This document shows positions 54,405-60,169 of a stretch of 64,000 nt of DNA, piece by piece. Made by a program: the position numbers and the translations under genes. The notes beneath the pieces are model-generated. The model was not told where the DNA came from. It did no database searches and saw only the letters and a list, made by a program, of their open reading frames with translations. Positions within the stretch are counted from its first letter, which is position 1. Every line of letters begins with the position of its first letter. The stretch spans positions 1 through 64,000 of the forward strand of contig WOUP01000012.1 of assembly GCA_009772895.1 (NCBI GenBank), written 5' to 3'. The DNA is from Puniceicoccaceae bacterium 5H. Lineage in GTDB: Bacteria; Verrucomicrobiota; Verrucomicrobiia; Opitutales; Oceanipulchritudinaceae.

Positions 54405-55958
54405 CTAGTCCCGGGGAAAGCGCGGCATGACGCGCAGAGTCTTGCCCGGTTCGAGCACGAGCTCATCGCCATTCGCCGGTTTCTCGTCGTCGAGATAAAC
54501 GCGGAAATGCAGCGGCTCGCTCAAATCGACTTCCCAGCGATATTCGCCGATGCCGGTCATATCGAGGATGAGTCCGTCATTGGGATCGAGCGGCGCCTGC
54601 TCGCCCCGGAGCGTCAACAGGTGGTTGTCGCCCACCATCGAACGTACCACCAGCACGCTCTTCTTCTTTTCCGCCGTCGGCTGCTCCGGCGGCGCTTCTG
54701 GAGCCGGCGTTTCAGGAGCGGACTCCACCGGCGCTTCCGGCTCCTTGGCTGCTGGCGTCGCGGCGGGCGGAGTCTCGCGACCGTGGCTCACGTCCAGATC
54801 GTCGTCGTCCCAATCCAACTCATCGTCTTCAAAGAGAAGCGTCGCCTGGACATCGCTCGCCAGCTTCTCCTCTTCTGACAACTCCTGCTCTGTTTCGTCC
54901 GCAGGCTTCGTTTCAGCCTCGGCGTCCTCATCGACAGAGACTTCAGCCGCAAATTCATCTTCCAACTGGGCCAGCTCTTCCGGGTCGAGCCAGTTCTGGT
55001 CCGCCTCCGCTTGCGCTTCGGCTTCTTCGGCCTCGGGTTCCGTCACCGGTTCCGGCTCCGGCTCGACCGGCGGCACTGCCTCAGCGGGAGAAGGCTTGCG
55101 TGCGATGGGCGATTCCACCTCGTCCAACTCATCCGCCGCGGTGGGCTCGGGTTGCGGCGGTTCGACTGCCGAAGCCGGTTCCGCGGGTGGCGGGGTTTCC
55201 GCCACGGGCTTGACGGCTGGAGGCTCCGGTTGGGCCGGCGCTTTGGGTTTTTCGGCGGCAGTGCCTTTGCCCTTGGGCGAAATCGTTACCCCTTTGCTGA
55301 TGAGCCGGTCCAGGCCGCGCCCGAGGCGACGGGGCTTGTTTTCAGTCTTCGCCGCGGGCGTCTCCGCCGGAGTGGAGGCAGGCGTTGCGGGCTTCGGGGC
55401 GGGCTCTGCTGGAGCAGGAACGGACGCTGCGGTGACGGGAGACTGCTCCAGCCGCCGCAAAATGGCGTCCAACTTGGCCTCCAGCGCCTTGAATTCCTCG
55501 CGACTCACCCCGCCTTTGCCGCCTGCGCCGAGTTTGCGCAAGGTCTCATCGAGACCGCCCTCCTGGGCAAGCTCCATAAAAGCCTGAAAGCCTTTCAGGC
55601 GCTCCTCGATCCGGTCCGGCACCTGACGGGCGATCAGGATACTCTTGGAGGCGGATTCCGCCGTCTCCTGCAGGCGTGCCTCGACCTTGTCCATATGAGC
55701 GACCGATTTGCGCAGCGTATCGCCGGCCCGGGCGTGCTCACCCTTGACTTCGGCCTGGTGATACAAGAGCTCGATCACATACACGGCGAGCGGGAGTAAA
55801 TTGCCCGCGAGGATAGTGAAGGCGACCGCCAAAAACGTGACCGGGGTCAGACGGTCCTGTTGCGTAAAGGCCAGCACGAAGGCGATAACGGTCAGGAGTC
55901 CGTTACCGACCCAGGCTCCGGCCATGATCTGCCGACTGTAAGGAAGATTGGAAGCCAT
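54405..55958 (-). CDS. Two-TM protein with long disordered linker and C-terminal beta domain
   Basis: An unrecognised protein of about 517 residues. Two hydrophobic helices lie near the N-terminus (about residues 12-33 and 38-61), followed by an alpha-helical, coiled-coil-like part. From about residue 180 to 435 it is low-complexity Pro/Ala/Glu/Asp-rich, almost certainly disordered. The last about 80 residues, starting KKKSVLVVRSMVGDN, form a beta-rich module reminiscent of early-set/CBM48-like domains, with RGEQAPLD, EYRWEVDL and PGKTLRVMP. No function can be assigned. It follows rsmB after 17 bases. The ATG at 55958 (MASNLPYS) is used. Confidence 0.7.
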   Translation of the reverse strand: MASNLPYSRQIMAGAWVGNGLLTVIAFVLAFTQQDRLTPVTFLAVAFTILAGNLLPLAVYVIELLYHQAEVKGEHARAGDTLRKSVAHMDKVEARLQETAESASKSILIARQVPDRIEERLKGFQAFMELAQEGGLDETLRKLGAGGKGGVSREEFKALEAKLDAILRRLEQSPVTAASVPAPAEPAPKPATPASTPAETPAAKTENKPRRLGRGLDRLISKGVTISPKGKGTAAEKPKAPAQPEPPAVKPVAETPPPAEPASAVEPPQPEPTAADELDEVESPIARKPSPAEAVPPVEPEPEPVTEPEAEEAEAQAEADQNWLDPEELAQLEDEFAAEVSVDEDAEAETKPADETEQELSEEEKLASDVQATLLFEDDELDWDDDDLDVSHGRETPPAATPAAKEPEAPVESAPETPAPEAPPEQPTAEKKKSVLVVRSMVGDNHLLTLRGEQAPLDPNDGLILDMTGIGEYRWEVDLSEPLHFRVYLDDEKPANGDELVLEPGKTLRVMPRFPRD

Positions 55959-55975
55959 TGCGAAGTTCCTGAAAT

Positions 55976-57247
55976 TCAAGATCCAGCGTAAATACGCGTC
56001 AAACGGAAAGCGCCGCCGCCATCATGCCCATCCACGTCTGGACGACTGAGCTTGGACTGCGCCAAGGCAAAGGGCAACTCCTGGAGTGCCTGCGTCACCT
56101 GCGCCTCGTTTTCCTGCGGCTCGATACTGCAGGTACTATATACCAGCGCGCCGTCAGCCGCCACAAACTCAGCCGCCTGACGGATCAGCTTCCGCTGCAG
56201 GGCCGCCACCTGGTCGATTTCCTTCGGGGAAAGCCGCCACTTGGCGTCCGGTCGCCGTCGCAACACCCCGGTATTCGAGCACGGGGCGTCCAACAAGACC
56301 ACATCGAAGGCGGCAAAGCCCGAATGCGCGTGCAAAGTGTCGGGCGTCAGTTCCAGCACATCCGCCTCGATTACCTGCACCCGGAGCGCTTCCTGTTCGA
56401 TGGCGTCCACATAAGGTTGCTGTGCCTTCTGCAGATTGCCCTTCAGGCGGCCCACTCGCGGGGCAAGGTCGACCGCGACAAGGCTGCCCTGCCCCTGCAG
56501 TCGCTGGAGGATCTGCCAGCTCTTGCCTCCAGGAGAGGCGCAAAGATCGAGCACGCGCATGCCCGGCTGGATACCGGCGAACTCCACCGGCCAGCGCGTG
56601 GAGGGGTCTGTCACGTAGGCCAGGCCCTTCTCCAGCCAAGGGCGCACCTCCGCCATCGTGGCCGGTGCCTTGAAGAAGCGCGGCCATTCGCCCGGCTGCC
56701 AATCCGCCGGCGGCACCACCGCGGGCGCTGTTTGCACCCACAATTCCGGCGCCTGCTGGTCCCACTGCATCAGCGCTTCCGCCGCCTCCGCGCCAAACTC
56801 CTGCGTCCAGCGCTCGTAAAGCCAACGCGGGTGGCTGGCCGCCAGAGAAACGTCGTCCGTCTCGGGCCATTGTTCCGGCGAACGCCGCAAAACCGCGTGC
56901 ACAAAGTTCGCTTCGGGCTTCGAAAGCACCTTTTTGGACTGCTCGGTGACAAAATCTATCACCTGCGCGCGGCCCGATTTTTCGTCGGCCCACAGCTCGT
57001 AGAAGCCCAGCAGCAAAGCCGCCTCGGCCTTGGGCCGTGGGGCCTTGGAGACCTGCCGTTTCAGGGCGTCCTCCAGACGCCTCCAATGCCGCACAACACC
57101 GTAAACCAGCCAGTGTAGCCGCCCTTGGGCAACTGCGTCTACCTGATCTTCCGCGCGTTCGAGAAGTTCGTCGATTTTTCCGGGCTGACGCCGATACTGG
57201 ACGAGGGTCCAGTGCGCCTGCCTCCATGCCTGTTCGAGGGGTATCAT
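55976..57247 (-). CDS. rsmB: 16S rRNA (cytosine-5-)-methyltransferase RsmB-like
   Basis: An m5C rRNA methyltransferase of about 423 residues. The N-terminal NusB-like helical domain (residues 1-130) is followed by a Rossmann methyltransferase: motif I VLDLCASPGGKSWQIL, catalytic Cys in LLDAPCSNTGVLRRRPD and the second Cys in YSTCSIEPQENEAQV. This matches the RsmB group that modifies C967 of 16S rRNA. The ATG at 57247 is preferred over a GTG at 57259. It is divergent from greA. Confidence 0.9.
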   Translation of the reverse strand: MIPLEQAWRQAHWTLVQYRRQPGKIDELLERAEDQVDAVAQGRLHWLVYGVVRHWRRLEDALKRQVSKAPRPKAEAALLLGFYELWADEKSGRAQVIDFVTEQSKKVLSKPEANFVHAVLRRSPEQWPETDDVSLAASHPRWLYERWTQEFGAEAAEALMQWDQQAPELWVQTAPAVVPPADWQPGEWPRFFKAPATMAEVRPWLEKGLAYVTDPSTRWPVEFAGIQPGMRVLDLCASPGGKSWQILQRLQGQGSLVAVDLAPRVGRLKGNLQKAQQPYVDAIEQEALRVQVIEADVLELTPDTLHAHSGFAAFDVVLLDAPCSNTGVLRRRPDAKWRLSPKEIDQVAALQRKLIRQAAEFVAADGALVYSTCSIEPQENEAQVTQALQELPFALAQSKLSRPDVDGHDGGGAFRLTRIYAGS

Positions 57248-57323
57248 TCGCCTATCCACCTTTTTGTTGACCTGCTATATGCGCCTTGTTGTGCTGATTG
57301 TTCCCGAATTTAGCGAGAGTTCT

Positions 57324-59204
57324 ATGGATAAGGAAGCGATCGATCAGCTCATTAAGAATTCACCCCGCCTGAAGCGCCAGCGTGCCAAGCTCGAAGCCAT
57401 GAAGCCTGGTGCTTATGTGGTTCATCGTAGCTGGGGGCTGGGGCAGATTCAGGAGTATGATGCTCAGGATAACAAGCTGATTATCGACTTCGAGGAAGGC
57501 AAGAAGGGGCACCCGATGGACCCGGTCTTCTGCGCCGAGAAGCTGGAAGTCTTGCCGGAGAAAGGTATTCTCGTGCAATCGCGCGAAGAACCGGATCGGA
57601 TCAATCAATTGATCAAGAACGAACCGGCCGACCTCATCGTCGAGATCCTCTCCCAGACGGACAGCCACAGCGCCACCAACCTTGAAATCGAGACCACGCT
57701 GAGCCGACTGCTCGGACAAACGAAATACAAGAAGTGGTGGACGGCCACGAAGAAGGTACTCGTGCGCGACCCGCGGGTCGCCGTGCCTTCCAAGAAGACC
57801 GACCCCTACATCTTGCGTGACGAGCCGGTCCGCGCCGAAGAAGAAGTGCTCGAAGAGTTCTTCGAGACCAAGGCGCCCAAGAAGAAGATCAATCTGGCCA
57901 GCCGCCTGATTGAGCTTTCCGTCGCTCACGACGATATTGCCGACTCCCTGCCGGACATTCTGCGTGAGCTGACCGCCTCGCTCGCCGAGACGAAGCAACT
58001 CAACCCGGGCGAACGCCTGCACGGCATCTGGGTGCGCAACGACCTGGCCCGCTTCATTCATGAAGATGTGGAGCAGCTCGAACCGACCTCCGCCTCCGTG
58101 CTGGAAGAGTCCGAAAACCTGAGCGAGCTGGCCGACCAGATCCCCGCCGCCTACCACAAGCGTTTCCTCGACCTCATCACACGGGTTCTGCCCGAAGAGT
58201 GGGTACGCGTGGTGTTCGAGCTGCTGAAGAACAGCTCCGGCAAGTTCACCAGCGAGTGCATCAACTTCCTGCTCGAGCGCAACCTGCAGGACGAACTGGC
58301 CACGACCATGCGCCGCTGGCTCGTCGAGCAAAACCTCAAGGCCCCTGTGCTGGCCTGGATCCTCAAAAACCGCAGCAGCCGCAAGTATTCGCCGATGCTC
58401 GACGGTTTGATGGGGCCCCGCCTGCTCAGCGCCATTTTCTTTGCGATCGACTATGAGGCGCTGCAAAACACCAGCACCCGCCGCATCCCGCTCGCCGATC
58501 TCGTGATCGAAGACCAGGAGCTGATCGGCGACCTGTTGACCACGGCCACGCCGGAAACGGCGCACGACCTGGCGCAGACGCTGATGCTCAATCAAGGCTT
58601 CGAAGACCTTTCCAAGAAGTCCCTGCTCGCCCGCTTTATCAAGCTGTATCCCAGCGTCCAGGCGCTCGTCTCCGGCGAATCCGCCGAACCGACCGCCGAG
58701 GAAGAAGGGCTCATCGTCTCCAAGTGGAGCTTTGAAGAGCAGAAGCGCGAATACGAGGATCTGGTGCAAAACCAGATCCCGCGCAACAAGCAGGACATTG
58801 CCGACGCACGCGCTCACGGCGACTTGCGCGAGAACGCCGAATACAAGATGGCCCGCCAGGAACAGGATATCCTGCTCTCCCGCAAGGCCGAACTCGAATT
58901 GGCGATCAACCGCTGCAAGGTCACCGACTTCAGCGACGCTCCAAAAGGCCGCGTCGGTATCGGCAGCGTCGTCGGGCTGCGTAACCTCCAGACGGGCGAG
59001 ATGGTCACCTACTCCATCCTCGGCGCCTGGGACGGCAATCCGGAAAAGCACATTCTCTCTTACCAGACGCCGCTGGCCAAGGCCCTGATCTCCCGCGCAC
59101 CGGGCGAACAGATCAAGGTAAAGGTCGGCGACAACGAAGATGAATACGAGGTCAAGAGCATCGAGCGGTGGTTTGACCTTCAAAAATCCGGCGTTTCCGC
59201 GTAG
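57324..59204 (+). CDS. greA: GreA transcription elongation factor with CarD-like N-terminal extension
   Basis: A 626-residue protein with a normal GreA at the C-terminus: coiled-coil tip DLRENAEYKMARQEQ with the acidic residues and FKBP-like SILGAWDGNPEKHILSYQTP. In front lies an extra region of about 460 residues. Its start, GAYVVHRSWGLGQIQEYDAQ, resembles the Tudor-like RNA polymerase-interacting domain of CarD/TRCF proteins; the remainder is helical. Normal GreA is about 158 residues. It is likely an RNA-polymerase-associated factor with added contact surfaces (inference). The ATG at 57324 (MDKEAIDQ) is preferred over the start at 57264. Confidence 0.9.
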   Translation: MDKEAIDQLIKNSPRLKRQRAKLEAMKPGAYVVHRSWGLGQIQEYDAQDNKLIIDFEEGKKGHPMDPVFCAEKLEVLPEKGILVQSREEPDRINQLIKNEPADLIVEILSQTDSHSATNLEIETTLSRLLGQTKYKKWWTATKKVLVRDPRVAVPSKKTDPYILRDEPVRAEEEVLEEFFETKAPKKKINLASRLIELSVAHDDIADSLPDILRELTASLAETKQLNPGERLHGIWVRNDLARFIHEDVEQLEPTSASVLEESENLSELADQIPAAYHKRFLDLITRVLPEEWVRVVFELLKNSSGKFTSECINFLLERNLQDELATTMRRWLVEQNLKAPVLAWILKNRSSRKYSPMLDGLMGPRLLSAIFFAIDYEALQNTSTRRIPLADLVIEDQELIGDLLTTATPETAHDLAQTLMLNQGFEDLSKKSLLARFIKLYPSVQALVSGESAEPTAEEEGLIVSKWSFEEQKREYEDLVQNQIPRNKQDIADARAHGDLRENAEYKMARQEQDILLSRKAELELAINRCKVTDFSDAPKGRVGIGSVVGLRNLQTGEMVTYSILGAWDGNPEKHILSYQTPLAKALISRAPGEQIKVKVGDNEDEYEVKSIERWFDLQKSGVSA

Positions 59205-59227: not shown

Positions 59228-60169
59228 ATGGCTGATCCGCTGGAAATCCTCAAGCTGATGGCGGACGCAACTCGTTTGCGTCTGCTACACTTGCTGCGCT
59301 CCGAGGAACTCTCCGTGGCCGAGCTGCAGGAGATCCTCGACATGGGACAGTCACGCATTTCGTCCCACCTCGGCCTGTTGCGCCAGGTGGGGCTCGTGCA
59401 GGACCGCAAGGACGGCAAGCGAAGCTACTATACGTTTCGCCCCGAGCCTTTCCGCGAGATGCGGACGCTGATCGAATCGGCGCTCAAGGCTTTTGAGGCG
59501 GATCCCGTCGTCGCCCAGGACCAGCGTGCGCTGGAACGCGTATTGGAACGCCGGCGCGCCGCCTCCGAGGCCTACTTCAACGCCGTAGCGGGGCGTCTGG
59601 GGCGCAATTACTGCCCCGGGCGATCCTGGGAGGCGATTGGCCATATGCTGCTGCACCTGACGCCGCCCATCGTGGTGGCCGACCTGGGTGCTGGCGAGGG
59701 CCTGATTGCCCAATTGCTCGCCCGACGCGCCCGTCAGGTCTACTGCATCGACTACTCGCAGCGCATGGTCGAAGTAGGGATGCAGCTGGCGAAGGAACAG
59801 GGGCTGACGAATCTCGAATACCGCTTCGGCGACATCGAGGAGGTGCCGCTCGAGGACAACACGCTCGACCTCGCCCTGTTGAGCCAGGCTCTGCACCACG
59901 CCGAACACCCCAACCGAGCAATCGAGGAGGCCTTCCGCATCCTCAAGCCGGGCGGCCAGTTGGTGATTCTCGACCTGAAGGCCCACAATTTCGAGCAGGC
60001 GCGTGAGCTCTACGCCGACCGCTGGCTCGGCTTTTCGCCCAACGAAATCTACCAGTGGCAACAGTCCGCCGGATTCGAAAACGTGCGCGTCGACATTGTG
60101 GCCAAAGAAGAACGCGAGCCGTGCTTCGAGACGCTGCTCGCGACCGGCTTCAAGCCTGAGGCATCTTGA
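59228..60169 (+). CDS. ArsR-family regulator fused to a SAM methyltransferase
   Basis: A fusion of 313 residues. Residues 1-90 are an ArsR winged helix (KLMADATRLRLLHLLRSEELSVAEL, QSRISSHLGLLRQVGLV) without an obvious cysteine metal site. Residues about 145-300 are a class I methyltransferase with motif I VADLGAGEGLIAQLL and DIEEVPLEDNTLDLALL, like UbiE-type enzymes. Such fusions are known in bacteria; the target is not known. It lies 23 bases after greA. Its end overlaps ptsI by 20 bases tail-to-tail. Confidence 0.85.
   Translation: MADPLEILKLMADATRLRLLHLLRSEELSVAELQEILDMGQSRISSHLGLLRQVGLVQDRKDGKRSYYTFRPEPFREMRTLIESALKAFEADPVVAQDQRALERVLERRRAASEAYFNAVAGRLGRNYCPGRSWEAIGHMLLHLTPPIVVADLGAGEGLIAQLLARRARQVYCIDYSQRMVEVGMQLAKEQGLTNLEYRFGDIEEVPLEDNTLDLALLSQALHHAEHPNRAIEEAFRILKPGGQLVILDLKAHNFEQARELYADRWLGFSPNEIYQWQQSAGFENVRVDIVAKEEREPCFETLLATGFKPEAS

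Follow-up and report, generated by a model that had tools for sequence, protein, structure and literature searches.

A long-form GreA with a predicted Tudor-like domain in Puniceicoccaceae bacterium 5H and its counterparts across Verrucomicrobiota

The first 64,000 nucleotides of contig WOUP01000012.1 from Puniceicoccaceae bacterium 5H (assembly GCA_009772895.1), referred to here as the window, include a long-form greA gene on the forward strand (57324–59204). The gene is one intact open reading frame of 626 codons and a stop that begins with ATG and has no interruption. Its product is a complete GreA (residues 465–615) preceded by 464 extra residues, as anticipated in a preliminary description of the sequence, where about 460 were counted. 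An ATG is found at the position matching 57324 in 80 of 80 related loci (the best 80 of 166 confirmed loci were kept, giving 81 sequences with that of 5H). M1 is unchanged throughout the 56 of these 81 sequences that were closely aligned, from which one relative with a broken frame (L076) was excluded, and a weak GA-rich stretch resembling a ribosome-binding site lies just upstream. A start at 57324 therefore fits, and an in-frame TTG at 57264 was rejected as an alternative, being neither conserved nor accompanied by ribosome-binding-like sequence. The features of the gene are collected in Table 1; the dissection of the extension into domains is a predicted one.

Table 1. Coordinates in the window of the long-form greA gene and of the parts of its product.
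Feature	Residues	Coordinates	Strand	Basis
Weak GA-rich ribosome-binding-like stretch just 5' of ATG		57313..57319	+	sequence read directly; inference
Long-form greA	1-626	57324..59204	+	open reading frame, Pfam domains, NCBIfam match, alignment, family-wide relatives
N-terminal helices	1-25	57324..57398	+	predicted models; upstream frame lengths
Tudor-like domain	26-78	57399..57557	+	model, Pfam, Foldseek, second aligner, profiles
Winged-helix-like domain	82-165	57567..57818	+	predicted structure only
Alpha-solenoid	169-450	57828..58673	+	models, fold matches, conservation
Flexible linker	451-464	58674..58715	+	predicted local distance difference test (pLDDT) <50 at 452-461
GreA N-terminal coiled coil	465-533	58716..58922	+	PF03449; predicted fold
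Catalytic tip D500-L-R-E503	500-503	58821..58832	+	D and E in 83/83 sequences
GreA C-terminal domain	540-615	58941..59168	+	PF01272; predicted fold

Both Gre families of Pfam were matched over their cut-offs, GreA_GreB_N (PF03449) at residues 465–533 (E 3e-16, 59.8 against 24.5 bits) and GreA_GreB (PF01272) at residues 540–614 (E 2.3e-19, 69.6 against 26.9 bits). D500 and E503, which we take to be the equivalents of D41 and E44 of Escherichia coli GreA, are kept in all 83 GreA sequences of a phylum-wide set. This set comprises 83 genomes, that of 5H included, picked from matches with listed coordinates; left out were, among others, G079 (a 486-residue frame), G030 and G135 (no match), and G031 and G058 (coordinates unlisted). 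The predicted Gre part has the same fold as E. coli GreA (1grj; Z 15.9, root-mean-square deviation (rmsd) 2.8 over 150 residues), and the Gre domains and the acidic catalytic pair are common to the long protein and to E. coli GreA and GreB. E. coli GreA, given as 158 amino acids long (PMC10995303), lacks the extension. The invariance of the catalytic pair argues that the long protein has kept the cleavage activity and acts like GreA in this respect. The genome of 5H has one PF01272 match only, in the long gene, which is thus its sole Gre; a separate short greA, for which the preliminary description had proposed a search, was not among the matches.

The long form is the usual GreA of the Verrucomicrobiota sample. 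All 83 open frames of the phylum-wide set have at least 621 residues, each of the 17 family genomes searched (5H included) has a full-length relative, which in G194 contains an in-frame TAA, and of 145 genomes drawn from the phylum as a whole 143 matched the alignment profile. In a separate sample, PF01272 was matched in 190 of 194 phylum genomes: among the matches listed, 136 genomes had exactly one, 54 had more and 4 had none, and a sole match usually, not always, lay in a long frame (that of G185 has 145 residues). Since the architecture is conserved in the genomes sampled from the phylum, the combination of extension and GreA is not due to chance. A recent local chimera or an assembly artefact was accordingly rejected, and the word "chimeric" in the preliminary description does not hold if a recent fusion was meant. 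Broken frames were seen in two relatives, with a single in-frame TAA in G194 (L138) and an early stop in L076. In 38 of 40 frames from outside the class, 124–205 open-frame residues precede the Tudor-like domain, and two have more; in 5H there are 26 from the ATG. One of the long genes (G095; L213:2476-7818, reverse strand) lies in a 1781-residue open frame with the Tudor-like domain after about 1190 residues, and no Pfam family matched the front part of this frame at E 0.01.

Long GreA forms outside the phylum, also noted in the preliminary description, were found in NCBIfam. The whole protein matched PRK14720 (E 4.3e-78) and PRK06330 (E 3.6e-45), and the extension alone (residues 1–455) matched the same two models (E 1.2e-29 and 1.4e-16, respectively), which shows that the architecture is common to long GreA proteins already on record. 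The proteins of both models are homologous with that of 5H over nearly its full length, extension included. PRK14720 is a 906-position model of which about 280 N-terminal positions are absent in the 5H protein; PRK06330, a 'transcript cleavage factor/unknown domain fusion protein', has 718 positions, and about 110 at the N-terminus are absent. The scores are far under the curated cut-offs (263 against 714 bits for PRK14720 and 155 against 697 bits for PRK06330), and the 5H protein is therefore a relative rather than a member of either narrow family. These families are presumably those of spirochaetes and chlamydiae. The GreA of Chlamydia trachomatis is reported to have 715 amino acids, compared with 626 here, and a 2024 review calls chlamydial GreA 'unusually large', its size being taken there to suggest no functional comparability to E. 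coli GreA (PMC10995303). For Verrucomicrobiota, the invariant catalytic pair argues against this size-based view. The 5H protein is a further case of a known but little-studied long GreA and is ordinary for its phylum. A literature search, which most subscription journals lay outside, found no domain dissection of the long-GreA extension.

AlphaFold2 models were built on the 56 aligned sequences for the whole protein and for residues 1–165 separately. Residues 1–165 were modelled with a pLDDT of 93.1 and a predicted template modelling score (pTM) of 0.80, and residues 26–78 form a Tudor-like barrel. In a Foldseek search of the PDB with this model (50 rows shown), the first five rows were C-terminal Tudor domains of UvrD/PcrA (7egt_B, TMt 0.81, rmsd 1.8; 5dma, TMt 0.70), and CarD entries (2lqk, TMt 0.47) and eukaryotic Tudors ranked behind them. 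A second structural aligner, whose own caution is that Z below 8 may reflect merely a common arrangement, gave a tie between the E. coli UvrD Tudor solved with the RNA polymerase lobe (7egs_B, Z 6.6, rmsd 2.1), UvrD1 (9dqs_B, Z 6.4), CarD (4kbm_B, Z 6.3, rmsd 2.0, 54 residues aligned) and a eukaryotic Tudor (8ye8_A, Z 6.6). By sequence, DUF3553 passed its cut-off on residues 1–165 (21.6 against 20.3 bits, E 1.6e-4), and at E up to 1 it was found in 45 of the 56 close members, CarD_TRCF_RID (PF02559) in 24 and PcrA_UvrD_tudor (PF21196) in 12. In hhalign, a Tudor profile of 59 of the 83 phylum sequences (24 with divergent Tudors had been excluded beforehand) reached 79% probability against 31 RNA polymerase-interacting domains (RIDs) of Mfd from the same phylum.

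As judged by these models and profiles, the barrel falls within the broad Tudor group that comprises CarD, the Mfd RID and UvrD, and the polymerase-binding type of domain expected near the N-terminus is thereby placed at residues 26–78. The "CarD-like" start of the preliminary description stands in so far as the Tudor is of the group that includes CarD; the Foldseek list is led by UvrD/PcrA, and the C-terminal, DNA-wedge domain of CarD is not convincingly there. Hence in the model the N-terminal part departs from CarD behind the Tudor only, not in the Tudor itself. With CarD/CdnL the 5H protein has in common the Tudor-like RID fold, which UvrD, Mfd and eukaryotic Tudors share as well. It resembles Mfd in its RID profile but has no translocase, and the Mfd-sized PF02559 match of the genome is a separate gene. 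In UvrD/PcrA, the Tudor stands at the C-terminus of a helicase, whereas here it is N-terminal to GreA and no helicase is present.

The fold shared with UvrD/PcrA is accompanied by a shared motif, H-x-x-[WF]-G-x-G. The 5H Tudor carries H-x-x-W-G-x-G, in which H34 and W37 align on the H and F of H-A-K-F-G-E-G (H-x-x-F-G-x-G) of E. coli UvrD. H34, W37, G38, G40, H63 and M65 do not vary among the 56 close sequences, and in the aligned columns of the 83 phylum sequences W37 is kept in 56, G38 in 70, G40 in 79 and H63 in 57. H63 and M65 were placed by eye on K712 and L714 of PcrA, H63 being seemingly the equivalent of K712. PcrA/UvrD is reported to bind RNA polymerase via the Tudor fold, and each of the PcrA substitutions H681A, W684A, K712A and L714A severely reduces polymerase binding (PMC5397179). 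Since PcrA/UvrD binds through the same fold and the probable equivalents of its binding residues, H34, W37, H63 and M65, show no variation among close sequences, docking of the 5H Tudor on polymerase is probable by analogy. Thus, the Tudor probably anchors GreA to the enzyme. The architecture, the catalytic residues, conservation in the genomes sampled from the phylum and the predicted Tudor fold with its motif are established here.

Several results weigh against this assignment. The matches of the 5H protein to Tudor families are weak by sequence: DUF3553 was under its cut-off in the whole-protein scan (18.8 bits), as were CarD_TRCF_RID (15.9–16.2 against 23 bits; E 0.012 on residues 1–165) and PcrA_UvrD_tudor (12.8 against 23.9 bits). 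Among 49 phylum-wide members, at E up to 1, DUF3553 was found in 5, CarD_TRCF_RID in 3 and PcrA_UvrD_tudor in 1, hardly above the unrelated YajC, MSSS and AlkZ-like families (3 each). The Foldseek list held no match at E 0.001, comparison of the N-terminal profiles with solved structures by sequence gave nothing credible, and the Tudor profile reached only 5% in hhalign against the single sequence of E. coli UvrD, the pairwise score with which was matched by 23 of 1000 shuffles. H34 is kept in 32 of the 83 phylum sequences and replaced by another residue in 51. The model of the whole protein (mean pLDDT 86.4, pTM 0.52) leaves the relative placement of the domains unfixed, as follows from its low pTM.

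Behind the Tudor, residues 82–165 are predicted to form a winged-helix-like domain. All 56 close sequences have W138, and W139 is present in 74 of the 83 phylum sequences. In the second aligner, residues 80–165 were matched best by the N-terminal domain of the delta subunit of RNA polymerase (Z 9.2 for 9a6y_A, which is a model; Z 8.0, rmsd 2.2 and 70 of 84 residues for 8x6g_E), with forkhead domains nearby at up to Z 8.1. Membership of the HARE-HTH family (PF05066) was rejected on sequence profiles, and a resemblance of fold alone was kept: the family was absent from all 16 families matched by the 56 close members and from the best 25 of 31 families for the 49 phylum-wide members, it had no match in the 5H genome, and hhalign gave the winged-helix part 3% probability against a HARE-HTH profile made from 26 of 30 fetched same-phylum stretches (the other four being cut, mis-registered, duplicate or very weak). 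In one genome, G083 (that of L251), HARE-HTH was matched fourteen times in frames of 130 residues with almost the same score, scattered as a mobile element might leave them.

The predicted alpha-solenoid that follows corresponds to the long helical part of the preliminary description and gave matches to generic helical-repeat structures only. In close relatives, residues 301–450 and the Gre coiled coil rank with the most strongly conserved parts; throughout the phylum, residues 301–450 are less conserved than the Tudor and Gre parts.

Other users of this type of domain were sought in the phylum. The UvrD Tudor (PF21196) was over its cut-off in 0 of 96 phylum genomes, compared with 8 of 14 control genomes, and the UvrD-type helicase of 5H ends without a Tudor. 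PF02559 was matched in the 5H genome by Mfd and the long GreA only. CarD_TRCF_RID was over its cut-off in 42 of 52 genomes of the order, once in each, in frames of 536–1253 residues, sizes that suit Mfd rather than a stand-alone CarD. A match over the cut-off in a CarD-sized frame was not found in the 52 order genomes, and all small-frame matches had E above 0.08. Among the matches listed, PF02559 showed the same pattern in the phylum as in the order.

The possible partner of the Tudor was examined in RpoB. The PcrA Tudor is reported to read a hairpin with a T-G-E tip in sequence insertion 1 (SI1) of RpoB (PMC8318588). At the classical SI1 hairpin site, RpoB of 5H (L247) has K-G-A, and the published PcrA-binding motif was found in 0 of 59 RpoB stretches. 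Near residue 932, where RpoB of 5H is aligned to E. coli SI2, it reads V-N-S-E-T-G-E-I-I, and a triad ending in E or D is present there in 27 of the first 30 sequences. The surrounding region of RpoB (residues about 920–960 in 5H) is a strongly conserved insertion that aligns with E. coli SI2 and has the pattern I-P-L-D-V-x-N...I-I-P-A-N-R-K-I-T-K.

GreA and RpoB were compared in 56 genomes with both genes, 3 of the 59 RpoB genomes having been left out because no GreA locus was available for them. The Tudor [WF]-G-x-G is kept in 38 (with H63 in 36 of these), and all 38 have a loose triad [TSDN][GDN][ED] in the RpoB loop, which is [TS]G[ED] in 29. In three families (f14, f19 and f24; 17 genomes), all 17 Tudors differ in the columns of [WF]-G-x-G and of H63, and the loose triad is absent in 15; G014 and G028 have a changed Tudor face yet retain the loose triad. 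G046 has neither the Tudor motif nor the triad, and keeps H34. In an RpoB tree (FastTree, midpoint rooted, read without branch supports), the three families form one clade with G046 as its sister.

Since all 17 cases fall in one clade, they amount to a single coupled change, and the apparent strength of the correlation in genome counts was discounted. Two further observations reduce its force. SI1 of RpoB also differs in this clade, and each of the 17 changed Tudors has a Trp a few residues further along, in a loop that is longer (as W-G in 14). The Tudor face is therefore altered rather than plainly lost, and the count of 0 of 17 in the aligned column of W37 overstates the loss. The joint change of Tudor face and RpoB hairpin would fit docking and is a lead, not proof. 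A bolder proposal is that UvrD-type Tudor docking has moved, phylum-wide, from the helicase to GreA, the SI1 hairpin having decayed and a hairpin-like stretch of similar appearance, the one aligned to SI2 near residue 932, being read instead; both would then have changed in one clade. We regard this as unlikely, its odds being lowered by the Trp that the changed clade keeps in the Tudor loop. If true, stalled transcription would be met by permanently docked RNA cleavage and not by helicase-driven backtracking.

Taking these data together, we favour, as a fairly probable explanation, a cleavage factor whose Tudor tethers it to RNA polymerase and which does the job of GreA at backtracked complexes. 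The Gre coiled coil would enter the secondary channel of the polymerase, where the D500/E503 tip would stimulate cleavage of backtracked RNA. Docking would fall to the N-terminal Tudor, a module of the same type as those of UvrD/PcrA, Mfd (its RID) and CarD, which would keep the factor attached to the beta subunit. The solenoid would bridge the distance between this dock and the secondary channel, and the winged-helix-like domain may give a second contact, to polymerase or DNA. Polymerase binding, the site of the dock and the roles of the winged-helix-like domain and solenoid are what we infer. Tethering would keep cleavage ready on elongating or stalled polymerase in a genome where no other Gre, no stand-alone CarD and no UvrD Tudor was detected. 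The long GreA is the sole Gre of 5H and of those phylum genomes whose one match sits in a long frame. The dissection assigns the 460 extra residues a concrete role, predicted Tudor docking, and reduces the problem to two small constructs and a few point mutants.

The extension could instead be a scaffold for other partners, for instance proteins of repair or of replication, or a binder of modified peptides, with its Tudor not on polymerase. In the fold matches, eukaryotic Tudor readers draw level with the bacterial domains, the UvrD Tudor is reported to bind UvrB as well (7egt; PMC8318588), and the solenoid resembles protein-binding helical repeats. Against this, the extension is covalently joined to GreA, a polymerase factor, and the Tudor face and the RpoB hairpin change within the same clade. 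Moreover, the Tudor domains of Mfd, CarD, RapA and PcrA are reported to bind the beta subunit, though that of NusG binds S10 (PMC5397179). We consider a scaffold of this kind improbable.

A CarD-like initiation factor fused to GreA is a distinctly unlikely explanation. Its Tudor would sit on the beta1 lobe and the next helical domain would stabilise the open promoter complex, so that the protein would serve both initiation and paused complexes. The close fit of the 4kbm_B RID to the Tudor and the PF02559 match at E 0.012, under its cut-off, would suit such a factor, and the niche may be open in the order, given that no CarD-sized match was over the cut-off there. The conserved W138 and W139 after the Tudor recall the wedge W86 of CarD (PMC4593161). 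However, UvrD/PcrA Tudors head the Foldseek list, the part past the Tudor aligns with CarD only at rmsd 8.0 (4l5g_A) and resembles a winged helix, and nothing promoter-related is among the findings. A strict CarD fusion is thus not supported behind the Tudor, and the Tudor itself is led by UvrD/PcrA in Foldseek and tied in the second aligner. No result here points to a role in initiation, and the dual role suggested in the preliminary description is conjectural.

Distinctly doubtful, too, is a recycling factor like HelD and delta without the NTPase, in which the Gre coiled coil, placed in the secondary channel, would act together with a winged helix like that of delta on the beta' jaw/shelf to loosen stalled or idle polymerase: HelD is reported to have a Gre-like arm and to act with delta (PMC7749165), and the delta N-terminal domain heads the second-aligner list, but forkheads score nearly as well and delta is not among the best 50 Foldseek rows for residues 1–165, so that the likeness may be one of common fold only, HARE-HTH is matched neither by sequence nor by profile, and Pfam found no NTPase domain in the protein.

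Returning to the locus, the neighbourhood of greA across the 80 related loci gave no clear clue to function. Upstream, on the opposite strand, 76 of the 80 have a relative of rsmB, and 64 have an ArsR-methyltransferase gene downstream, short contigs being counted as misses in both cases. In the window, the latter gene (59228–60169, forward strand), whose product joins an ArsR-type winged helix to a methyltransferase, begins 23 bases past greA; in other loci the gap is often wider. On the reverse strand, 54405–55979 encodes a 524-residue protein that has, by eye, a membrane-like N-terminus and a Pro/Glu-rich middle. It matches no convincing Pfam family (best E 0.82) and has relatives in 7 of the 80 loci, the seven closest.

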